A stretch of DNA of 16,531 nucleotides from Melioribacteraceae bacterium (GTDB taxonomy: Bacteria > Bacteroidota > Ignavibacteria > Ignavibacteriales > Melioribacteraceae): NCBI GenBank assembly GCA_026987055.1, contig JALSNL010000104.1, forward strand, positions 1 to 16,531. Direction: 5' to 3'. Below are positions 4,755 through 16,531 of the stretch, in pieces (position 1 is the stretch's first letter; every line of letters begins with the position of its first letter). The translations under genes were made by a program, and so were the position numbers. Under the pieces are notes generated by a model, which had not been told where the DNA came from, searched no databases, and saw only the letters and a program-made list of their open reading frames with translations.

Positions 4755-5657
4755 TTAAAAATTCATTTTAATATTTAATCTGGGATAATAATCCGTATAA
4801 TAACCAATTGTTTCTTTTTGCACCGAAACATTCATCTGAATTTTTTTATTATATCTACTGGCACCCCAAGCCGCTTCTAGCGCACTAATAAAATGATTAG
4901 TAACAATTGTTATAACAGCCCACTTTGCTCCGTTGTAATAATCATTTGCTTTGCCGCGTTGTTTTGAATAATACTTAAATTGCGGTATTACCGGATCTAC
5001 ACCAAAAGTAAAATCAGTATTTTCATCACCGAATTCATCCCAGCCGACATTGAACTGCGTATATTTTCCAATCATTTCATAATATTGCTGATCACCATAA
5101 GGAGCTAGACGATGCGAATAATACTGTCCGCCGGGAGAACGGCTAACTTCATTTTCCAATTCGTTAAGTACATCCCAATTAACTTTATTATTAACAATTA
5201 AATTTTGATTGTAGTAATTCACTCGCTCTTGATTATTATAAATATCAGGATTAAGTTTTTCCAAATGATTCAATGTCCATTTAGCATACCGAACCGAGCT
5301 CCAATGTTGATTTGCATAGCTTTCAAAAATCTCCGTTTGGTCGTCACCCTTTTTATCATAAATAATTGTTAATGCAACTGCGGCAGCTTCAACACCAATG
5401 AATACTCCGGCAAGCAAATAGTCTTCATTATAAATTTGTCCAATTCCCGGTAATAAAAACGAATATGATCCTGCTAAAATTGGTATTTTTCTTTTATGAT
5501 TAAAAATATCGGAATTAAATTTTTCCGGCTTATTATCAATATTTTGATAAATAAAATGAGAATCACTTTTTAATGAACCGGTTAAATAATTTTTCCCCGA
5601 ATTTTGTGCAAATACTACATTTAATGAAATAAACAAAAATAAAAATTTCTTAATCAT
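4755..5657 (-). CDS. DUF5683-like exported/membrane protein, function unknown
   Basis: This 300-residue protein starts with a short signal sequence (MIKKFLFLFISLNVVFAQ). A hydrophobic segment at about 62-100 contains SFLLPGIGQIYNEDYLLAG, the PG-x-GQ-x-YN motif characteristic of DUF5683-type small membrane proteins common in Bacteroidota and Ignavibacteria. A second hydrophobic or amphipathic segment near 246-265 contains NHFISALEAAWGA. The polar middle (about 105-235) is rich in Tyr, Asn and Asp and has no catalytic motif I recognise. The ATG at 5657 is preceded by AGAGGA five bases away, and it starts 9 bp after the stop of the peptidase-barrel gene, so it is almost certainly co-transcribed and probably works in the same envelope process. 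The family assignment rests on the motif and layout; no biochemical role is known to me. Confidence 0.75.
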   Translation of the reverse strand: MIKKFLFLFISLNVVFAQNSGKNYLTGSLKSDSHFIYQNIDNKPEKFNSDIFNHKRKIPILAGSYSFLLPGIGQIYNEDYLLAGVFIGVEAAAVALTIIYDKKGDDQTEIFESYANQHWSSVRYAKWTLNHLEKLNPDIYNNQERVNYYNQNLIVNNKVNWDVLNELENEVSRSPGGQYYSHRLAPYGDQQYYEMIGKYTQFNVGWDEFGDENTDFTFGVDPVIPQFKYYSKQRGKANDYYNGAKWAVITIVTNHFISALEAAWGASRYNKKIQMNVSVQKETIGYYTDYYPRLNIKMNF

Positions 5658-5666
5658 TTTAATCCT

Positions 5667-8600
5667 CTAAAAAGAAAAGTCAAAAAGTATTCCGCCATAA
5701 AATTTCCATTCTTTACCATAATTAACGGTTTCACCTCTTATGGTTTTTTGATATTTATCGAACGAATAGGAAGCGTTGAAAAACAAGCTTGTAGGAAATA
5801 AATAAAATGAAATCATTTTTAATCTTACTTCGGCACCTATACCTTTTTTGAAATCATTTAATTTTGGAAAACCTTCTGTCCAAGCATTTCCGAAATCTCC
5901 GCTTACCGAAAAGAAAAGTTTATCGAAATATAAATGTCCTAAACGGTAATCTATGTTTTTAAATACCGGAATTCTGTAAGTTAAATTTAACCAAACAATT
6001 TCATTCCCGCTAATTGCATAGAAAGGATAACCTTTCATTCCAATCAAACCGCCAAGATAAAAATCAAAAAAATCGGGTACTTTGGGACCTAAAATTGTTC
6101 CGCCTCTAAATCTTGCCGAAAGCGTATGATTGTTAAATACCGAAAAGTACTTTCTTATGTTCAGTTCCAATCTATGGAAATTAAAATTTTGATAAACAGG
6201 AACCAAAACACCATTTTCCGCTTCGTACTCACTTTCCGGATTATATTTATTCATTTCGTAATTATATTTCAGTTCAATATCCGTTCCTACGGGATTTATG
6301 TCTCTATCAATTGTAGGAGCTAATGATTTATATGTATATTTTAATTGTAAATTTCTTCCGATAAAATATTCATCGCTGCTGCTTGGATATAACACACTAG
6401 AGTTTGGGAAAATAAAACTACCGATACTTGCCGAATATTGACTATATATAAATCTAAATTCAACATGATTTTTTGAGGAAAAAATTTTATGCTTTGCCGC
6501 CAAATCAACTTCAAATAAATTATATGTTACATTTGTATTTACAATGTCTTCATAAGTCGGCGGATCTGTGGTATTATCAACACCGAATTTAATATCAACA
6601 TCAGACTTTCTGCTAATGGAAAATAAATCCAACGAAATTACCGGTTTTAAGCCGAGACTAAAAAGTAAAGGGACTTTGTTTCTGTAGAAGAAAGATAAAA
6701 ATAAATCACGCTCCATTCTTTTGTTTATTGAACCTCCGGCAAACAACGAATATCTGTTAAGCATATCGGTAGAACCGAGATAAACACCGGGCTTAATTTT
6801 ATCAAGAAAATTTTTTGATGTATTATAATTGTCATAACGGATAAACGGCAGAATTGTCAATTTTGTAAATGCACTTGAATATTTTTCACGTTTGATATCA
6901 GGTAAATTATAATCATTAAAATTTTTAAGTTTGGCAATTTCTTGTTTGGTAAAATCACCATTGCTTTTTACTTCATCAAGAGGTGGATTTTTACGTTGAA
7001 TATATTTTTTATTCGGATCTACTTTTTTAGATTCTTCTTTACTAATTTCAAATAATTTGTATCCCGTTGCAGTGTAACCGGCATAAACAATATTTTCTTT
7101 GTTGTTAACCACCGGCATAAATGCTCCGCCTGTAACATTAGTTAGCTGTGTTCTTTCTTTTGTTACCGGATTTAATTTATAAAGGTTATATATACCAGTT
7201 TCATCGGAGGCGTAAATTATATTTCCATCTTTGTCATAAGTAGCGTTACGTTCATCGTAAGGTTTGTTCAGAATAAATTTTTTACCGGAACCATCGGCTT
7301 TAATTGTGGCAATGTCTCTACCTTGGTGATAAGCATAACCAAAAATTATTGCAGAATCATCATTAGAAAATTTAGGATTAAAAACTTGCTCCCCCATTTC
7401 ATAAAAAGTTAATCTTGTAAAATTCTTTCCGTTAATATCAACGATACCAAGATTTGACGTTCCGTCTTGTTGAAAAACAAAAACTATTTTTTTACCATCG
7501 TGGGAAACATTAGGATTGTTTGCACGCAAACCGAATGTTATTCTTGTTTCTTCTTCTTCGTCCAAATCGTAAATGTAAAGATCATGAACCTTTCTCCATT
7601 TAGGATTTTCCTCACTTAATTTTGCATAAACAATTTTATTGGTTCCTTTAATAAAATTAAAGGTTGAACGAATACCGGACCGAACCAATTCTTTTTCTTT
7701 TTTCTTAATATCATATTTATAAATTCCCGAAGTAGCAAAATAATCACCGCCGGCATTTGAGATGAAGTAAATTTGTTTTTCGTCAGGTGAAAAAACCGGA
7801 TAAAAATTACCGAATCCATCTTCAACAAGTTCTTTACCTTTAACTAAATTTTCTTGAACGCTTTTTATTCTTCTTTTATAATCTTTTTTTATAAAGGAAC
7901 TCCATTCGTCATAAATTTCATTACCGTCTTTACCAAGCACATCTTCAAAAGCAGCATCAATTGTAAAGTTTGTAAGTTTGCCAAGCTTGTATGTAATTTC
8001 TCTTATTTTATCTTCGCCATATTTTTGAGAAATGTATTTTGTTAAAGCAAAGCCAGAATTATAAACCGATTCATTGCCTAAGCTGGTTTTACTAAACACA
8101 CCCATTTGGTTCCAGCTAAGCATTTTATTTTCAATTGCGTAAGAACGCAAAATCATATCGCGGTGCGAATCCCAATTATCATAATTGAATTCCGGTCTCA
8201 TATATTGTGCAGTTCCTTCGGCAAACCAAGCGGGCATATTAATTGAAGCAATTGGATATGAAGCAATAAAATTAGGGAATCCGTAAAGTATATCCGGTCT
8301 TCTTTTATCTTCGTAATTTAGATATTGCAAATATATTGCCGGTGTTGATCTTCCTATTTTCATAGAAGCTTGTATTTGCACCATGTGAGTAAACTCGTGA
8401 GAAATTACATTGCGTAACCAATTATGAGTTCCCCGCAAATCAAAATCCAAAGCTGATGACCAAATTTCAATTTTGTTATCAAAGAAATATGTTGCACCGT
8501 TTGAATAATCATCAATATCTTTTATAACAAAATGTACAATGTCGGGTTCGTACTGATATAAACGTGTTATAGGTCCCCAAACTTCTTCGGCAATTTTCAA

Positions 8601-8762
8601 AACTGTTCTGGCGGAACGTTCGGTTTCTTCGTGATAATGTACATAAACATGCTTGCCTTTTAATGTGTACCAATTAAACTCAGGATCAAAATCATCTAAC
8701 TGTGCATTGGTGATTTTTGTTTGTACAATAAACAGTATAAGCAATAGGGTTATTTTTTTCAT
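5667..8762 (-). CDS. Gluzincin-type peptidase + TolB-like propeller + Omp85-like outer-membrane barrel
   Basis: The product is 1031 residues with a signal peptide (1-20, cleaved after TNA). The N-terminal domain (about 25-300) looks like a peptidase-MA-type zinc metallopeptidase. HEFTH at 122-126 supplies two zinc ligands and the catalytic Glu, and WFAEGTAQY supplies the third ligand, Glu182; both motifs are intact. A propeller of five or so PD40/TolB-type blades follows (about 310-590), for example YPVFSPDEKQIYFIS and PNVSHDGKKIVFVF. From about 640 to the end is an outer-membrane barrel. It carries GGLIGMKGYPF near 900, as in the strand-13 region of BamA/TamA-like proteins, then LNLTYRIPVF, and ends in a terminal Phe as an outer-membrane beta-signal. 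It starts 29 bp after the pseudo-M6 gene, without an obvious Shine-Dalgarno. Location in the outer membrane is well supported. Peptidase activity and substrate are inferred; a role in surface-protein maturation or quality control fits the T9SS neighbours. Confidence 0.85.
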   Translation of the reverse strand: MKKITLLLILFIVQTKITNAQLDDFDPEFNWYTLKGKHVYVHYHEETERSARTVLKIAEEVWGPITRLYQYEPDIVHFVIKDIDDYSNGATYFFDNKIEIWSSALDFDLRGTHNWLRNVISHEFTHMVQIQASMKIGRSTPAIYLQYLNYEDKRRPDILYGFPNFIASYPIASINMPAWFAEGTAQYMRPEFNYDNWDSHRDMILRSYAIENKMLSWNQMGVFSKTSLGNESVYNSGFALTKYISQKYGEDKIREITYKLGKLTNFTIDAAFEDVLGKDGNEIYDEWSSFIKKDYKRRIKSVQENLVKGKELVEDGFGNFYPVFSPDEKQIYFISNAGGDYFATSGIYKYDIKKKEKELVRSGIRSTFNFIKGTNKIVYAKLSEENPKWRKVHDLYIYDLDEEEETRITFGLRANNPNVSHDGKKIVFVFQQDGTSNLGIVDINGKNFTRLTFYEMGEQVFNPKFSNDDSAIIFGYAYHQGRDIATIKADGSGKKFILNKPYDERNATYDKDGNIIYASDETGIYNLYKLNPVTKERTQLTNVTGGAFMPVVNNKENIVYAGYTATGYKLFEISKEESKKVDPNKKYIQRKNPPLDEVKSNGDFTKQEIAKLKNFNDYNLPDIKREKYSSAFTKLTILPFIRYDNYNTSKNFLDKIKPGVYLGSTDMLNRYSLFAGGSINKRMERDLFLSFFYRNKVPLLFSLGLKPVISLDLFSISRKSDVDIKFGVDNTTDPPTYEDIVNTNVTYNLFEVDLAAKHKIFSSKNHVEFRFIYSQYSASIGSFIFPNSSVLYPSSSDEYFIGRNLQLKYTYKSLAPTIDRDINPVGTDIELKYNYEMNKYNPESEYEAENGVLVPVYQNFNFHRLELNIRKYFSVFNNHTLSARFRGGTILGPKVPDFFDFYLGGLIGMKGYPFYAISGNEIVWLNLTYRIPVFKNIDYRLGHLYFDKLFFSVSGDFGNAWTEGFPKLNDFKKGIGAEVRLKMISFYLFPTSLFFNASYSFDKYQKTIRGETVNYGKEWKFYGGILFDFSF

Positions 8763-8791: not shown

Positions 8792-11740
8792 TTATTTTAC
8801 AACTGCAATTTTAATTATTTTACTATCGGCTCTACCGAAATTGGACTTAACTTCAATTTTAGCAAAGTAAGCTCCGCTTTGAATATTACTAACATCCCAA
8901 GCTATTTCATTATCCAAACCACCTGTTGCATTGTACTCAAGTTTATCAACCAAGTCGCCTGCCAAATCGAAAATACGGATTGTTATTTTGGAATCTTCCG
9001 CAACGTAAGTTCTTATAAAAGTTTGGTTACCGTAAACAGGATTGGGCCAATTGTAAGTTCTGTTTTTGGGGAAAAAATCTTCCGTAAAACTTTTGCCGGT
9101 AGAAGCTTCAACAAAAGCATTATTGTTATTATTTCCAAATTTGTTTCCCCAAACAACTTTGCCGTTAGATTTTATGCTCCATGTAAAAAATGCATTATCA
9201 TCGGTTAGGCTTGTAAACAATAAATCATTTTCTCTTTTAATTATTGTTTGAGCACCGGTAAAACTGCTACCGATTGAAATAGGGAAACCTTGCAACAAAC
9301 TTCCGTCCAAACCGGAATATGCAAATATCAAACCGTTACGGGATGTGGAAATTATATCGGGATTATCGTCGTTATCAATATCGGCAATCATCGGATAGGA
9401 AACAAATTCCGAAATATCATTTTGTTCCACCGGAAAATATTCTGCCATATTGCCTTTAATATTAACGGCATTTAGTTTATTTCCAAGGTTGAAAAGAATA
9501 TAATTTTCACCGTCTTGTTTTATATCGGCAAGTGAAAAGTCATCTATTATTAAATCGTCTGCAATATTAAATTCATATAAAATGGAAAAATCTTTAATTA
9601 CGTAAAAAGTGTTTCCTTTAGCTAGAGCAATAATTAAATCCTTACCGTTACTATCTTTAGTAATTATTGTTTTTTTAATTTCCTTATCCAAAGTAACGGA
9701 ATTTGTTCTACTTGAGATTTTTTTACCTGATATTGCATAAAGATTATTGCCGGAAAATATTACTTGAGAAATCATCGGATTTTGCATATCAATTGTTTCT
9801 ATCAAGACCGGTTTATCTTCTGTATTTGTATCGAACGAATAAACAGCAATTGTTCCGTCATACAAACCGATATATAATTTAACATTATTTCCATTTTTTT
9901 TATACACAATAGGAGCATTACTATATTTACCCAAATCAATTGCACCTATTCCTAAAGAATTTAAATATCTTCCTTGAACACCAAATAAATATTTTTTGTT
10001 ATTTTCTTCAATTAGTACAAAATTACTATCGGCAAAATTTTGACTGCTTAAGGCAATAGAATTTGATGAATCAATTCTATAAAGATTTGAATTTGATAGA
10101 ATCCAAAATTCGGAATTTTTATTAGTATGTTTTATTCCCATAATTTTAGAGGTCAAATTCAGTTTATTAGAACCAAGCAGTTCAAGTTTTTCATTTCCTA
10201 TTTTTAAATCAAACGTCATTGTATTAGAAATTTCCGAAAAATTTGAAAATGAAATTAAACTATTAGCTCCGTCGTTTGTGTTTGTATTAGGTTTTGTTGC
10301 AGCATCAAATTTATTTTTATAAAATTCGGATGGATTTCCTTTGTACCAAAAATCAAATTCATCACCTTCGGCAATAATTGTTGTTCCGAAAATAGTATTA
10401 AACTCTTCACCAATATCTTGAATGCCGTCAGCTTCTTCCAAATCAACGCCTCTTCTATTTTTATCGGCATTAATTTTATTGCCAGCTAAATTTTCTTCTA
10501 TCACTTTGTTATCAATGTGCCAAATAAGAATACCGCTGCCCGGGACTGCCCAATCAAATTCATCAACATCAATAACAACACCATTGATTGTATCAACCTC
10601 TACATTATTAAAATTTAAAGTATCTTTTGGTAAGGATAAAGATTTAATAACACCGGCGACCTTATATGTAATTTTAATTCCGTCTTTGTTTGCATCACGT
10701 TGACGGTTTTCAACCAAATAATATTCGGATGAGTTAATTGGAATTTTAATTATTCGCGCATCTGTATTTTGTGCAACTTGTTTTGCAAAAACTTTAATAT
10801 TGTTTTGTGTTGAATTAACAACAACAGGTTCTTCCCAGCCGAGAAATATTTTTTCCCAAGCGGAAGGTTCGGGCGGAAACAATCCTTTATAGGCAAACAG
10901 AGATTGTCCGTCCATTAGCCCAAAGCGTCCGATGGCACTTTTCCCATTTTCGGAATTAAACAAATCCGGTAAACCGAGATGACTTGCTATGCTTGAGACC
11001 AACAAACCGTTGATTGATAATTCCAATAAAACAGATTCACCTATTCCTTTTTCTTCCCTTGATTCTGTTTCCGGTAATATCATTGTATTGGTAATTGTTC
11101 CGTTATTTCCGGCGGCAAAGCCGGTAAAAGAATCGCCAAAATATTTTTTGTAAGTTTTCAAGTTAAAATAAATAGAGGGTAAGTCTCTAGCTTCTCCCAA
11201 CAATTGATTCGTACTAATATCTTTTCCAACACCGGCATGAAAAATTGCAAAAAGATTATAATCGGCAAAATTTATATTCTGATTTTGCTCCACCGCCAAT
11301 TGCCAAACCTCTTTGGAAAAATCCGCCAAAGGCTTGAAGTCTTCATTTTCTTTTGGAGAATAATCCCGCATAACTTTGGAAACCGTTACAACATTAGGTA
11401 AAACGGTATATTCTATACTTAGATTATTATTAGAAACTTTTGCAAAATAATTTTGTGCAAATTTCAGATGATCGGAAAAATAATTAACATCGTGAGGTAA
11501 CGGATCTATAATTGAATTACCATAATCTTTTGTATAAATTGTTCCGAATTTTCCATCACCTTGAGTAAGATCAAATTTATCTTTTTGAAATTCAACCATC
11601 ACTGCTAATATTTTAACTTTACTTAGCTTGATTGGATTAGCTGCTATTCCGGAAGATATCTTTTTTGAAATAAAAGCTTGAGCAGTTAAACTACTCAAGC
11701 TTATTAAAATAAGTACAATACTAATTTTTATTTTGGTCAT
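8792..11740 (-). CDS. Secreted M6-metalloprotease-like protein with inactivated zinc site and T9SS sorting domain
   Basis: The product is 982 residues with a signal peptide at about 1-21 (MTKIKIS, a hydrophobic core, LTAQA). Residues about 45-470 follow the M6 (InhA-like) family: NYFAKVSNNNLSIEY, then GLPDLF...GRFGLMDGQS...PSAWEKIFLGW, then ILIWHIDNKVIEENL and GVDLEEADG. The zinc-binding HEXXH that should precede LGLPDLF reads SSIAS (residues 249-253; bases 10982-10996), so neither His nor the catalytic Glu is present, and no other HEXXH occurs. A propeller-like region (about 540-880) includes a calcium-loop motif DIDNDDNPD near 785. The last 90 residues start with YNWPNPV and form a type A T9SS sorting domain. 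The gene begins 6 bp after porV ends. It is expected to be exported through T9SS and act non-catalytically, by binding or scaffolding; this role is inferred. Confidence 0.85.
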   Translation of the reverse strand: MTKIKISIVLILISLSSLTAQAFISKKISSGIAANPIKLSKVKILAVMVEFQKDKFDLTQGDGKFGTIYTKDYGNSIIDPLPHDVNYFSDHLKFAQNYFAKVSNNNLSIEYTVLPNVVTVSKVMRDYSPKENEDFKPLADFSKEVWQLAVEQNQNINFADYNLFAIFHAGVGKDISTNQLLGEARDLPSIYFNLKTYKKYFGDSFTGFAAGNNGTITNTMILPETESREEKGIGESVLLELSINGLLVSSIASHLGLPDLFNSENGKSAIGRFGLMDGQSLFAYKGLFPPEPSAWEKIFLGWEEPVVVNSTQNNIKVFAKQVAQNTDARIIKIPINSSEYYLVENRQRDANKDGIKITYKVAGVIKSLSLPKDTLNFNNVEVDTINGVVIDVDEFDWAVPGSGILIWHIDNKVIEENLAGNKINADKNRRGVDLEEADGIQDIGEEFNTIFGTTIIAEGDEFDFWYKGNPSEFYKNKFDAATKPNTNTNDGANSLISFSNFSEISNTMTFDLKIGNEKLELLGSNKLNLTSKIMGIKHTNKNSEFWILSNSNLYRIDSSNSIALSSQNFADSNFVLIEENNKKYLFGVQGRYLNSLGIGAIDLGKYSNAPIVYKKNGNNVKLYIGLYDGTIAVYSFDTNTEDKPVLIETIDMQNPMISQVIFSGNNLYAISGKKISSRTNSVTLDKEIKKTIITKDSNGKDLIIALAKGNTFYVIKDFSILYEFNIADDLIIDDFSLADIKQDGENYILFNLGNKLNAVNIKGNMAEYFPVEQNDISEFVSYPMIADIDNDDNPDIISTSRNGLIFAYSGLDGSLLQGFPISIGSSFTGAQTIIKRENDLLFTSLTDDNAFFTWSIKSNGKVVWGNKFGNNNNNAFVEASTGKSFTEDFFPKNRTYNWPNPVYGNQTFIRTYVAEDSKITIRIFDLAGDLVDKLEYNATGGLDNEIAWDVSNIQSGAYFAKIEVKSNFGRADSKIIKIAVVK

Positions 11741-11746
11741 GTCAGA

Positions 11747-12913
11747 TTAAATTCCTCTTGGAAAACCTTTAGTGGATTTGTGTTTGGTTCCGCCCCAGCC
11801 AATAAGCAAACTAAAACGTAAAGTATCAGAAAGAGGATGATTTTCGCCGCCTTTAAATACATCGGTTGTAATATAACTAAAGTCAAAGCCGTAAAGATCA
11901 TATCTTAAGCCGGCACCAATTGTAACAAATTTTCTATTTCCAAAATCCGGATCTTCATAAAAGAAGCCTGTTCTTAAAGCAAATTTAAAATCATCATCTC
12001 CGTACCAATATTCAAGTCCCATTGAAGTAACAACATCTCTCATTTCAGTACTAAAATCATCATCAAACCAAGATGTAAAAATTGCTTTATAGAATTTATC
12101 TCTTTTACCATCAGCATTTTTCTTTCTATCAACAAGCAACTTGCTCATATCACCTGTCCAAGTAAGTGAACTGTAATCATCTTGCATTAGCATAATAGCT
12201 AAACCCAACCTAAAATTTGTAGGTATCGGGTCAGCTTGAGCTTGATCGATATAATAAATTTCAGGTCCAATATTGCTAACATTAATACCTAAGCTAAATC
12301 TGTTACTTAAATCTCCAATAAGCGGAATTTTAAATTCTTCCGGTCTCCACATAGTTGCAATATCAAAACTAACTGATGTAGCAACACCTTCACCAACTTC
12401 ACCGGCTGTCGGTTTATCGGAAAGACGACTGTGAATAATTCTAAAGTTTAATCCTAAACCCCAATCAGGATGAAGCTTTGTAGAATAACCTAACGTCAAA
12501 GCAGCATCAAAAGATCTGAATTTTCCTAAAGGATCAGGGGAACCTTCTCCGGTTCTAATAAATTCACCAAAGTTCATATAGGTTATGCTGGAAGTAACAC
12601 TGCCACCAATTTCTTCTATATATTGTCTGTAGGTTAAATAATCGTAAAAAAGATCATCCAAACCGAATTGTGGTAACCAGTTACTATGTGTTATGCTTAC
12701 TTCCGTTCCATCTAAAAATGCAATTCCCGCAGGGTTCCAAAAAATTGCTGCAGAATTATCTGCCAAACCACCACCGGATTCTCCGATTCCGCCGGCTCTG
12801 GAATCGGGAGCTAATAACAAGAAAGGAACAGCCGCCTCGCCTTGCGCCATAATTTTGTTGCTATTAAACAATGTCAGAACTCCTAAAATAAGCATCATTG
12901 TTAATCGTTTCAT
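11747..12913 (-). CDS. porV: T9SS outer-membrane shuttle protein PorV
   Basis: This is a 388-residue outer-membrane barrel of the FadL-like PorV (LptO) family. In the attachment complex PorV collects sorting-domain cargo after translocation and delivers it to the sortase PorU. Signal peptide MKRLTMMLILGVLTLFNSNKIMAQ is followed by the family hallmark FLLLAPDSRAGGIGESG and NSAAIFWNPAGIAFLDG. The rest is alternating amphipathic strands with aromatic girdles and a Gly-rich last strand (LRFSLLIGWGG). I place the start at the ATG at 12913 because TAGGAGG lies 10 bases upstream and it gives a clean signal peptide. A TTG at 12955 in frame would add 14 residues without a ribosome binding site. It follows porU by 55 bp, the same porU-porV order as in Porphyromonas gingivalis. 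Confidence 0.92.
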   Translation of the reverse strand: MKRLTMMLILGVLTLFNSNKIMAQGEAAVPFLLLAPDSRAGGIGESGGGLADNSAAIFWNPAGIAFLDGTEVSITHSNWLPQFGLDDLFYDYLTYRQYIEEIGGSVTSSITYMNFGEFIRTGEGSPDPLGKFRSFDAALTLGYSTKLHPDWGLGLNFRIIHSRLSDKPTAGEVGEGVATSVSFDIATMWRPEEFKIPLIGDLSNRFSLGINVSNIGPEIYYIDQAQADPIPTNFRLGLAIMLMQDDYSSLTWTGDMSKLLVDRKKNADGKRDKFYKAIFTSWFDDDFSTEMRDVVTSMGLEYWYGDDDFKFALRTGFFYEDPDFGNRKFVTIGAGLRYDLYGFDFSYITTDVFKGGENHPLSDTLRFSLLIGWGGTKHKSTKGFPRGI

Positions 12914-12923
12914 ATCTAAGTTT

Positions 12924-12968: not shown

Positions 12969-15900
12969 TTACCTAATTACTGCTATTTTTCCAAGTATAT
13001 TATCTTTATATTTACCATCGATAGTTTCAATATTTAATTTATAAAGATAAGTTCCGTTTGCTATGGCATCATTATCTTTATCTTTTCCATCCCACTTAAT
13101 TTTAACAAATTTATCGGGAATGCTTTCCTTTTTTATTTCTTTAATCAATCTTCCGGCAACAGTATAAATTTTAATTTTTACATTTATAGCATCGTTAAGA
13201 TTATGCTGAAATGTAAAATATGTGTATGATGAAAAAGGATTAGGATAATTATACACTTCGCGAACTATTAGTTTACTATCATCAACAACAGTAAAAAAAT
13301 TCTCTTGTGATGAAAAGTTATTGTAAACGTCCCATGCTTTTATTTTTATTTTATAATCACCTTTTTCCAAAGCCGAAAATTTATAACTTATCTCTCCTTT
13401 CTTTCCACCGGAGTTTAAGTCTCCAATAAAATAATCTGTTAAATCAATGGAGTTTTGTTCATCATCATTTAACACAGCTTCTAATTTATGTCCTATGCCA
13501 GCACCGGTTGTGTTAAGTCCGGTTTTATCAAAAAGTTTTACATGAAGCATAAAATTAGGACCTACCAAATATGAGTTTTCCATTTCGTCATCGTCATATA
13601 AAATTTCAATTTCAGGACCTTTGCCATCATTGCTTTTTGTAGTATCTGTTCCACCTACAATAATATTATCAGTATATCCGATTCCATCAACATCATCATT
13701 AAAAAAGTAAACAACTATTTTACCATTTTTATTTTCATAAGAAATATCTTTTGGAACAGTAAAACTTGTAGCAAATTCTCCGTTGGCAATAGATACACGT
13801 CCTCTAAAAATTACTCCGTCTTGCACTTCCATATTATAGCTTATATCATCAAGATGTATCATTCTTTTAGAATCAAAAACCGTAATAATTCCCTCGCCAT
13901 TAAATGATGAGTTATTACCATTTGCATCTAAAACTCTACCTTTGATATTTACATTGCTTAAAGCTTTTATTTGTACAGGGGTTGTTAAATCGCTATTGTT
14001 TACCTTTTCAACCTTAGCCGGTAAATTTGGAATATCCAACCTTAAATAAGGATCACAGAACAAATGATATTTTTCATCATTAGTCTCTATTCTGGTTTGT
14101 TTTAGTCGGAAATATGCATTACCCACCGGAACAGGGAAACCTTTTGAATCTTTTGTCCCTAGCAAATTATCGTAAAACAAATTATTTAATGCAGCATTAG
14201 AACTTGAATAAACAGGACGAACAGCAGACAATCCACCAATCATTCCTGCATCTTCCATTAAAACCATTTCTTCGGTTGCACTTTGCAAATTCGGGTCATC
14301 ATATTTCCCAAAATCGCATGTAGCTGCCGTAAGGAAAAAATATTCTTTATTTTTTAATTGAGGAATTGAAATGCTTCTTTGGAATACTCTTTCATGTGCC
14401 CAAACATCGGGATTACCATGACCAATATAATTAAATATTAAAGTTCCATTATTCATTGCGTCAAGTATTGCTTTGTTTACGTCCGGCTTTCTACGTCCTA
14501 AACCGGTGTTAACTGTTTTATAATTCGACAGGTAAATTTTATTTAGTTGAAAGTTTTGCGGAATGTGATGTTTAGCCAGTTGTTCCGATTGTCTTGTATG
14601 TCTAGCTCCGTCATTCCCACCTTTTGATGTTAGACCATCATCCGCCAATAAACTAATTTTGTTGCGCCATAATCCTTTCTGTAGAACTGTTTCATATTTA
14701 ATAATTTTATCAACAACACTTTTTGCTTCATCGGTAGTTGTAACATTTAATCTTCCAATTGCTAAATCCGCTTTATCGTCATTGCCGCTAATTCGCGAAT
14801 AAAAATCATCGTACGGATACGAATCTAACTCGCTTAAAGATTTTAATGTTTGATATGTAGGGATAAAATTTAATCCCTTCCCTAGTAAATCATAATAATC
14901 ATAATCTCCGTCGCCTAAAAGTAAAACATATTCGGGTTTAATTTCCCAATTGTTATAAGCGTATTTTAGAAAATCTCTTATAGATGTAGGATCTAATAAT
15001 CCTCCGGAAAATTCATTATAAATTTTATCTATATAAACCAGTTGACCGGAAATTTTAAATCTTGATTCATTTTCTCTATAGTTTAATAAGCGTTCAGCTT
15101 GTTCTTGAAATTTTTTATGTGTGATAATAACATATTTTCCACCGGTAGATATTCCCCTAATATTGGAGTTATCAATTTTTTCTCCTTTTGCCGGAACTTT
15201 AAGTTTTCCTGTATGTAAAGCAATATATTTTGTTATGGAATTATTCGGTTCGTTACTTTTAAAAGTAATTTGTCCGCCGGATTTTTCAACTTCAACCATT
15301 TTTACATTTGAATAATCAGAGATGTTAAATACTAAAATATCACTTCCGGAAAATCCAGGCACAGTATATTCGTTTACTCCTACTTTTGATTGAGAATAAA
15401 AAATTAAATTATCATCAACAGCATAAAGTTTTTGATAATATTTTATTTCATAATAATCCAAGTAAGCTCTGTCACCAATAGAAGTAGGTGTAATTGTAAA
15501 CTTTAATACACTCCGGTTATTAGGTAATGCTCCAATATATTTAGCCGTACCATATTTATCATTTCCTGCTTTATATTGTGCATTATCATCAAAGCCAATA
15601 CCCGGGACGGAGGTATTTAATATTTTTTTATTGTTTTCGTACAATGCCAATTTAATACTTGCCGGAGAACTATTAATAAAATGATACGAATAGTTAATTG
15701 TACTATCCGCTATAAATTCATTCAGCATATTTGTGTAAGTATTACTTGTTTTGGAATTGGAAAAATTATCTCCTACATTTATCAATCCGGACCCTAATAA
15801 ATTCTCTTTATCGTCGTCATAAAATTTAAATGCAACGGTTGAAGTTTGTACAAAATCAGCTTGACTGTTAACACTATTTTGCAACTGCATTCTTTTTCCG

Positions 15901-16531
15901 TTACTACCGCCAAAGGTAATCCAGTAATAATTATGTTTGGAATACCAATGTTTATTCCTCTTTATTTTTCTTTGAGTTTTGTTGTATTCAAAAAAATCAA
16001 CTCCTCTTGCGTAAAATAAAATATAATCGTTATCATTAAATTTTCCGTCTTCTTCGCCTGAAACAATTATTGCATTTTCAACTAAATCTTCAGGTCTTGT
16101 GTTGCTAATTTCCCAAGGTAAAATATATCCGCCATTGTTATATATTTTTATTGTTCTGGGATCAATTGTATTTACATTAATTCCCAAATTGGATAAATAT
16201 GATTTATCAATTTTATAAATTCCTTCTTCGTTTATATCAAATCTATACCAATCCCCTTTTGCCAAAACGGAATTATGAACAGATTTTTTAAGAACCTTTT
16301 GTTCAACTCCCCATTTTTTTAGTGCTTTGGAATTTATAACTATGTTAGTAAGGAAATCCGAATCTTGAATTTTTACAAAGTTTTTTGTGGAATTGAAAGA
16401 AATTTTAAATATTATTTTACTGTACAATTTTAATTGTTTATTGTTTACATCAAATTGCAGCGGATGAACATTAATTGTTTGAACCTTTACATTTCTGATT
16501 AAACCGAATTCACCGAAAGTAACTAACTCTT
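12969..16531 (-). CDS. porU: T9SS sortase PorU, C25-family cysteine peptidase (5' end outside window)
   Basis: The reading frame stays open to the right edge, so the gene is N-terminally incomplete; 1186 codons are visible. The TTG at 16427 is not the start: 34 more residues precede it (for example NVKVQTINVHPLQFDVNNKQ) and look like the usual PorU N-terminal propeptide region. The C25 peptidase core contains LLLGDGDYDYYD, AIGRLNVTTTDEAKSVVDKI, the catalytic His in NYIGHGNPDVW (codon 14418-14420) and the catalytic Cys in TAATCDFGKYDDP (codon 14316-14318), 34 residues apart, as expected from gingipains. C-terminal Ig-like and sorting regions follow, with YNYPNPFSSYTYFTF starting about 96 residues from the end. 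PorU cleaves the sorting domain from T9SS cargo and attaches it to surface lipopolysaccharide. Its own sorting domain matches the known retention of the domain in P. gingivalis PorU. It is followed by porV after 55 bp. Confidence 0.93.
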   Translation of the reverse strand, partial: ELVTFGEFGLIRNVKVQTINVHPLQFDVNNKQLKLYSKIIFKISFNSTKNFVKIQDSDFLTNIVINSKALKKWGVEQKVLKKSVHNSVLAKGDWYRFDINEEGIYKIDKSYLSNLGINVNTIDPRTIKIYNNGGYILPWEISNTRPEDLVENAIIVSGEEDGKFNDNDYILFYARGVDFFEYNKTQRKIKRNKHWYSKHNYYWITFGGSNGKRMQLQNSVNSQADFVQTSTVAFKFYDDDKENLLGSGLINVGDNFSNSKTSNTYTNMLNEFIADSTINYSYHFINSSPASIKLALYENNKKILNTSVPGIGFDDNAQYKAGNDKYGTAKYIGALPNNRSVLKFTITPTSIGDRAYLDYYEIKYYQKLYAVDDNLIFYSQSKVGVNEYTVPGFSGSDILVFNISDYSNVKMVEVEKSGGQITFKSNEPNNSITKYIALHTGKLKVPAKGEKIDNSNIRGISTGGKYVIITHKKFQEQAERLLNYRENESRFKISGQLVYIDKIYNEFSGGLLDPTSIRDFLKYAYNNWEIKPEYVLLLGDGDYDYYDLLGKGLNFIPTYQTLKSLSELDSYPYDDFYSRISGNDDKADLAIGRLNVTTTDEAKSVVDKIIKYETVLQKGLWRNKISLLADDGLTSKGGNDGARHTRQSEQLAKHHIPQNFQLNKIYLSNYKTVNTGLGRRKPDVNKAILDAMNNGTLIFNYIGHGNPDVWAHERVFQRSISIPQLKNKEYFFLTAATCDFGKYDDPNLQSATEEMVLMEDAGMIGGLSAVRPVYSSSNAALNNLFYDNLLGTKDSKGFPVPVGNAYFRLKQTRIETNDEKYHLFCDPYLRLDIPNLPAKVEKVNNSDLTTPVQIKALSNVNIKGRVLDANGNNSSFNGEGIITVFDSKRMIHLDDISYNMEVQDGVIFRGRVSIANGEFATSFTVPKDISYENKNGKIVVYFFNDDVDGIGYTDNIIVGGTDTTKSNDGKGPEIEILYDDDEMENSYLVGPNFMLHVKLFDKTGLNTTGAGIGHKLEAVLNDDEQNSIDLTDYFIGDLNSGGKKGEISYKFSALEKGDYKIKIKAWDVYNNFSSQENFFTVVDDSKLIVREVYNYPNPFSSYTYFTFQHNLNDAINVKIKIYTVAGRLIKEIKKESIPDKFVKIKWDGKDKDNDAIANGTYLYKLNIETIDGKYKDNILGKIAVIR

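Follow-up and report, generated by a model that had tools for sequence, protein, structure and literature searches.

Proteins that join an inactivated M6 metalloprotease to a type A C-terminal sorting domain of the type IX secretion system (T9SS) are already on record. NCBIfam release 20.0 holds them as the equivalog NF052323 (T9SSA_dep_M6i), under the name "T9SS-dependent M6-like inactivated metalloprotease". That name carries neither a function nor a companion gene, and we found no description of the family in open-licence PubMed Central text, nor any known job for it. PorV recognises type A sorting domains, as described in PMC12618676, and cryo-EM has shown PorV and SprA with a trapped type A substrate bound to them, as reported in PMC10994853.

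The member of this family studied here, M6i, has two further points of comparison. The M6 metalloproteases (TIGR03296; immune inhibitor A, PDB 4yu5) have a domain that matches residues 37-519 of M6i by profile, whereas M6i has lost all three residues of the HExxH zinc motif. PorZ, of the attachment complex, resembles M6i in being a propeller protein with a C-terminal sorting domain in T9SS bacteria; to our knowledge it has no M6 domain, unlike M6i. In the account given in PMC8545088, PorZ has two 7-fold propellers, again unlike M6i, as well as an uncleaved CTD, and acts together with PorU, PorV and PorQ. The PorZ N-terminal propeller family PF21544 was not among the Pfam matches of M6i at E values up to 1.

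The M6i locus

The window (the whole stretch of DNA analysed, 16,531 nucleotides from a Melioribacteraceae bacterium) holds the following features.

12969..16427, minus strand: PorU sortase (NF033707 975.5 bits, cut-off 420); the frame continues to 16529, the window edge
11747..12916, minus strand: PorV-family outer-membrane protein (NF033709 307.4 bits, cut-off 90)
8792..11740, minus strand: M6i, M6-like pseudo-metalloprotease with T9SS sorting domain, 982 aa (translation; NF052323 973.1 bits, cut-off 600)
11678..11740, minus strand: N-terminal hydrophobic stretch of M6i, putative Sec signal peptide, residues 1-21 (sequence; helix 2-15 in the model)
10184..11632, minus strand: M6-like domain of M6i, residues 37-519 (hhalign against active M6)
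11006..11011, minus strand: N244-G245 of M6i (alignment with active M6)
10982..10996, minus strand: former zinc site of M6i, SSIAS replacing HExxH, residues 249-253 (translation, alignments)
10964..10966, minus strand: D259 of M6i (alignment with active M6)
9167..10195, minus strand: beta-propeller of M6i, residues 516-858, resembling WD-repeat, designed eight-bladed and BamB propellers
8810..9049, minus strand: T9SS type A C-terminal sorting domain of M6i, residues 898-977 (TIGR04183, PF18962)
5667..8762, minus strand: companion, with an HExxH zinc-protease-like domain, a TolB-like propeller and a C-terminal predicted barrel, 1031 aa
8385..8399, minus strand: intact HEFTH of the companion, residues 122-126 (alignment, 64 rows)
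4755..5657, minus strand: DUF5683-like protein, 3' of the companion gene (PF18935 23.4 bits, below the cut-off of 26.7; conserved position)

The M6i reading frame is open throughout its 982 codons and begins 6 bp after the porV stop, as a preliminary description made from the sequence had stated. Translation also reproduced the SSIAS that the description had placed where HEXXH should be (residues 249-253 map exactly), together with the flanking M6 motifs LGLPDLF, GRFGLMDG, SAWEKIFLGW and ILIWHID. The T9SS sorting domain that it had assigned scores over cut-off with both PF18962 (33.8 bits, cut-off 27) and TIGR04183 (27.3 bits, cut-off 23). That description mentioned neither that NCBIfam already curates the family as inactivated nor that M6i has its closest genomic companion in the next gene, whose metalloprotease motif is intact. 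The NF052323 match runs over residues 6-982 and model positions 5-1043 of 1043, and we found no difference between M6i and the catalogued family, both being inactivated M6 proteins with a type A sorting domain. The inactivated-M6 reading is therefore not new.

The gene order is widely kept. In 81 neighbourhoods, window included, porV lies directly upstream of M6i in 80 and porU no more than 3 kb upstream in 67, while the companion lies downstream in 70 and two more end at a contig edge. In 80 public contigs, which overlap with these neighbourhoods in organisms, porV was found in 74, the companion in 73 and porU in 71, with contig ends in a further 6, 6 and 9, respectively. The sole public contig then left for the companion (L199) is 3.8 kb long and has M6i in two pieces, with pieces of the companion just beyond. 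The porV product of the window scores just under the cut-off of the narrower PorV equivalog NF033710 (249.2 bits, cut-off 250). Two porV-family genes stand in tandem upstream of M6i at L054 (6445-8893) and L163 (3464-5912), which are probably the same contig in two collections. All 58 genomes of one search hold an M6i match at E 0.001 or better; one of them, G024, has weak matches only, and the listed ones fall in the sorting-domain end.

Loss of the zinc site

Two alignments were used to follow the zinc site among orthologues. A1 holds 41 proteins (the window and 40 of 80 orthologue references) and A2 holds 80 rows (the window and 79 of the 80 public-contig loci, the broken L199 being left out); they overlap in organisms and are thus not independent samples. 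None of H249, E250 and H253 is found in any of the 41 rows of A1. Neither H249 nor E250 occurs in the 77 lettered rows of A2, nor H253 in 78. In A1, position 249 is A, S, G or T, position 250 is S, N, T, Q, M or I, and position 253 is S, N or G; one A2 row has H at position 250. The only HExxH string in the rows of either alignment is an HEMAH at residue 129 of the L088 protein, which lies in another segment and is not shared. In the L186 protein about four residues are missing across the former zinc-site stretch, the frame being otherwise open; this gap could be natural or an assembly slip.

The preliminary description had proposed to look for SSIAS-like substitutions among orthologues, and the loss is common to all readable rows of the two alignments. 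Since no aligned orthologue has the zinc residues, SSIAS cannot be put down to chance or error. It is near certain that M6i is a pseudo-enzyme. That an isolated mutation, decay or a sequencing error explains SSIAS has a negligible probability given the family-wide loss, the intact frame and the conserved neighbours, and isolated mutation was rejected on the ground that the orthologues in A1 and A2 likewise lack the zinc residues.

The M6 ancestry itself is clear at the level of profiles. M6i reaches 67.8 bits with TIGR03296, under the cut-off of 110.8. Eight matches in 24 relative genomes pass this cut-off, and HExxH stands at the aligned place in every one of them; an active M6 paralogue matches 4yu5 at 7.8e-15. 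The A2 profile aligns with these eight active proteins over residues 37-519 at a probability of 99.8% and E 2.3e-30 (hhalign). A FastTree phylogeny of the 41 M6i and eight active M6 proteins, rooted on the latter, places all 41 M6i in one clade; the label there read 0.504 after re-rooting and is not taken as a support value. Searched against PDB sequences, the M6i profile found the propeller protein SMU1 (two sequences, E 0.00032) and a ribosomal protein (E 0.49), and matched no M6 chain. The match lists of Foldseek, run with the M6i model, and of VIA-align, run with the M6i and companion models, were filled by propellers, so the evidence for M6 ancestry comes from the sequence profile.

R228, N244 and D277 are invariant in all 41 M6i rows and found in none of the eight active rows, whereas H168, D259, E344, H408, D410, D438 and D463 are largely common to M6i and active M6. 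Between the two, G256, P258, D259 and D463 are present in all rows and H168, Y340, H408 and D438 in most or all; G245 is shared with seven of the eight active rows. D259, kept in 41/41 M6i and 8/8 active rows, occupies what we take to be the position of the metzincin-type third zinc ligand. The invariant polar residues R228, N244 and D277, near the old site in sequence, would speak for a remaining enzymatic activity of M6i, based on a metal at another place or on new chemistry in the old cleft (H168, R228, N244, D259, D277, E344). We regard this as very unlikely, because no HExxH is shared elsewhere in the aligned M6i rows, and because H168, D259 and E344 are common to most of the ordinary M6 proteins compared and so need no new explanation.

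In A1 the mean column conservation is 0.57 for the M6 domain, 0.32 for the propeller and 0.54 for the sorting domain; in A2 the values are 0.67, 0.38 and 0.71, respectively, and there the sorting domain stands above the M6 domain. The structure model of M6i is confident. A shared loss of zinc residues, a set of invariant residues of its own and an M6 domain better conserved than the propeller form the pattern of a selected pseudo-enzyme and not of decay, which agrees with the earlier view of an intact frame that is not decaying. With the confident model, the family-wide loss and the conserved M6 domain also make the non-enzymatic role suggested earlier likely.

The companion gene and its pairing with M6i

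The companion combines a zinc-protease-like domain, a TolB-like propeller and a predicted 16-strand barrel, and we found no characterised member with this combination. The window copy scores 28.6 bits with Peptidase_MA_2, below the cut-off of 32.4, and 36.3 bits with PD40 (cut-off 20.9); it matches TolB chains at E values down to 4.8e-19. Residues H122, E123, H126 and E182 are invariant in 64 aligned rows, and HExxH is present in 135 of 136 copies. The model has a pLDDT of 84.9, and 16 long strands were counted in residues 636-1027. The closest described arrangement is the WD40-Omp85 subfamily, with which the companion shares the N-terminal TolB-like propeller; its C-terminal region, with the 16 predicted long strands, is a putative counterpart of the 16-stranded Omp85 barrel. 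The companion differs in having an extra HExxH protease-like domain in front. The Omp85 metalloprotease group has a different domain, PF00149, from that of the companion.

Co-occurrence was scored in 296 genomes drawn from one phylum, Bacteroidota. M6i exceeds the NF052323 cut-off in 110; in a further five, long M6-domain matches fall under it (E 3.8e-107 or lower). Counting these five, 115 genomes have both M6i and the companion, 181 have neither and none has one alone (Fisher p 2.8e-85, kinship ignored). The best companion E value is 3.4e-86 or lower in the 115 genomes and no lower than 2.4e-21 elsewhere. This genomic pairing is what is new here.

The pairing also holds where the two genes are apart, as they are, by their listed places, in 14 genomes; no M6i over 70 bits was found at seven companion loci fetched from among these. 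Within-family losses were examined in two families that otherwise have both genes. In one (f30), four genomes (G196, G266, G288, G322) keep porV and lack both M6i and the companion. In G196 and G288 the DUF5683 gene is the first one recognised downstream of porV, which means that exactly the M6i-companion pair is gone. In the other family (f38), G277, which is 97% complete, keeps porU-porV, followed by 3.6 kb to the contig end without either gene, and neither was found anywhere in the genome. The relatives G130, G310 and G134 have M6i and the companion adjacent, so that one deletion could remove both. When distance matrices from 35 loci were correlated with der partialled out, M6i-companion (0.62) was the highest of ten pairs, followed by M6i-PorU (0.49).

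Relation to PorU and PorZ

PorU fits the distribution of M6i less well than the companion does. With M6i counted over cut-off, 101 of the 296 genomes have both, nine M6i only, 97 PorU only and 89 neither (Fisher p 1.8e-13); with the five sub-cut-off matches included, the counts are 106, 9, 92 and 89. In family f30, SprA was found in 35/35 genomes and PorV over cut-off in 38/38, these 35 and three others. Nine genomes of the family have consecutive genes for PorV, M6i, the companion and the DUF5683 protein but no PorU over cut-off, and eight of the nine have no PorZ match. These PorU-less genomes (L084-L091, L114) are 97-100% complete and keep the SprA translocon and PorV.

The preliminary description had tied M6i to the secretion machinery within a sortase cluster. 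That tie stands, for porV rather than for the sortase porU: M6i directly follows porV in 80 of 81 neighbourhoods, and a link of M6i to PorU is weakened by the nine genomes in which M6i persists without a PorU over cut-off. M6i as a replacement for PorZ was rejected, since 99 of the 110 genomes whose M6i passes the cut-off also have PorZ.

Proteins with sorting domains were counted in 25 genomes, including 11 of the 22 PorU-bearing f30 genomes. The nine M6i genomes that lack PorU have 7 to 32 of them, against 14 to 85 in the 11 f30 genomes with PorU; four genomes with neither have 5 to 9, and the genome of the window has 57. The lower counts agree with reduced T9SS traffic after PorU loss.

Discussion

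M6i is strictly paired with a protein whose zinc-protease motif is intact, and for this reason we prefer to read it as a pseudo-protease partner. In this reading, M6i would be exported by the PorV route and would serve as the non-catalytic partner of the companion, a putative outer-membrane protein; we give this partnership an even chance. M6i would be made with a signal peptide and would cross the outer membrane by the type IX system via its type A C-terminal domain, with PorV as the shuttle. Given that M6i has a type A domain and PorV recognises such domains, export with PorV is the most likely route. Lacking zinc chemistry, M6i could then be a substrate receptor, a regulator or a docking platform for the companion, presumably through physical contact, with the old M6 cleft as the probable binding part and any proteolysis probably the work of the companion. 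By analogy with Omp85 proteins, the propeller and protease of the companion would face the periplasm, so that contact may come about while M6i is in transit, or by way of barrel loops at the surface. A periplasmic protease domain would also face away from the surface to which M6i would be exported, which counts against the partnership. So do the association of M6i with PorU, the sub-cut-off score of the protease domain in the window copy of the companion, and the sorting domain being better conserved than the M6 domain in A2. The co-occurrence, moreover, comes from a single phylum with kinship ignored, and the within-family losses cover two families in which one deletion could have taken both genes. 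More tentatively, and on balance somewhat doubtfully, the two could form a two-part proteolysis module on a PorV branch of the type IX system that is independent of PorU. The dead M6 protein, exported by PorV, would sense or present a substrate or the status of export, and the live outer-membrane zinc protease would act on that substrate or status or be held in check by M6i.

The same association with PorU (p 1.8e-13 over 296 genomes), the gene row porU-porV-M6i with PorU within 3 kb upstream in 67/81, and the precedent of PorZ, a propeller protein with an uncleaved CTD that PMC8545088 describes as working with PorU, PorV and PorQ, could also point to M6i as a structural part of the PorU-PorV attachment machinery, aiding the sortase or its anchor lipid in a PorZ-like way. 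This is unlikely in view of the nine genomes that have M6i, PorV and SprA without a PorU over cut-off, eight of them without PorZ, and of the 92 genomes with PorU and no M6i; nor does M6i take the place of PorZ, which accompanies it in 99/110 genomes. T9SS cargo often consists of adhesins. If M6i had reused the M6 fold and propeller to become a scaffold or adhesin at the surface, with the companion kept simply through a common lifestyle, this would account for the large propeller and its low sequence constraint (0.32 in A1). It would not explain why constraint is stronger on the pseudo-protease domain than on the propeller, why co-occurrence with the companion is perfect even where the genes are unlinked, or why both are absent together where the neighbours are kept, and we consider it quite improbable.

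The strict pairing of M6i with the companion, a putative outer-membrane protease encoded next door, and the survival of this pair where the sortase is missing provide a two-gene hypothesis, open to testing, for a protein with no known job. They further suggest a conserved PorV client, in Ignavibacteria and other lineages of the phylum, that may not be apparent in the well-studied Porphyromonas and Flavobacterium systems.
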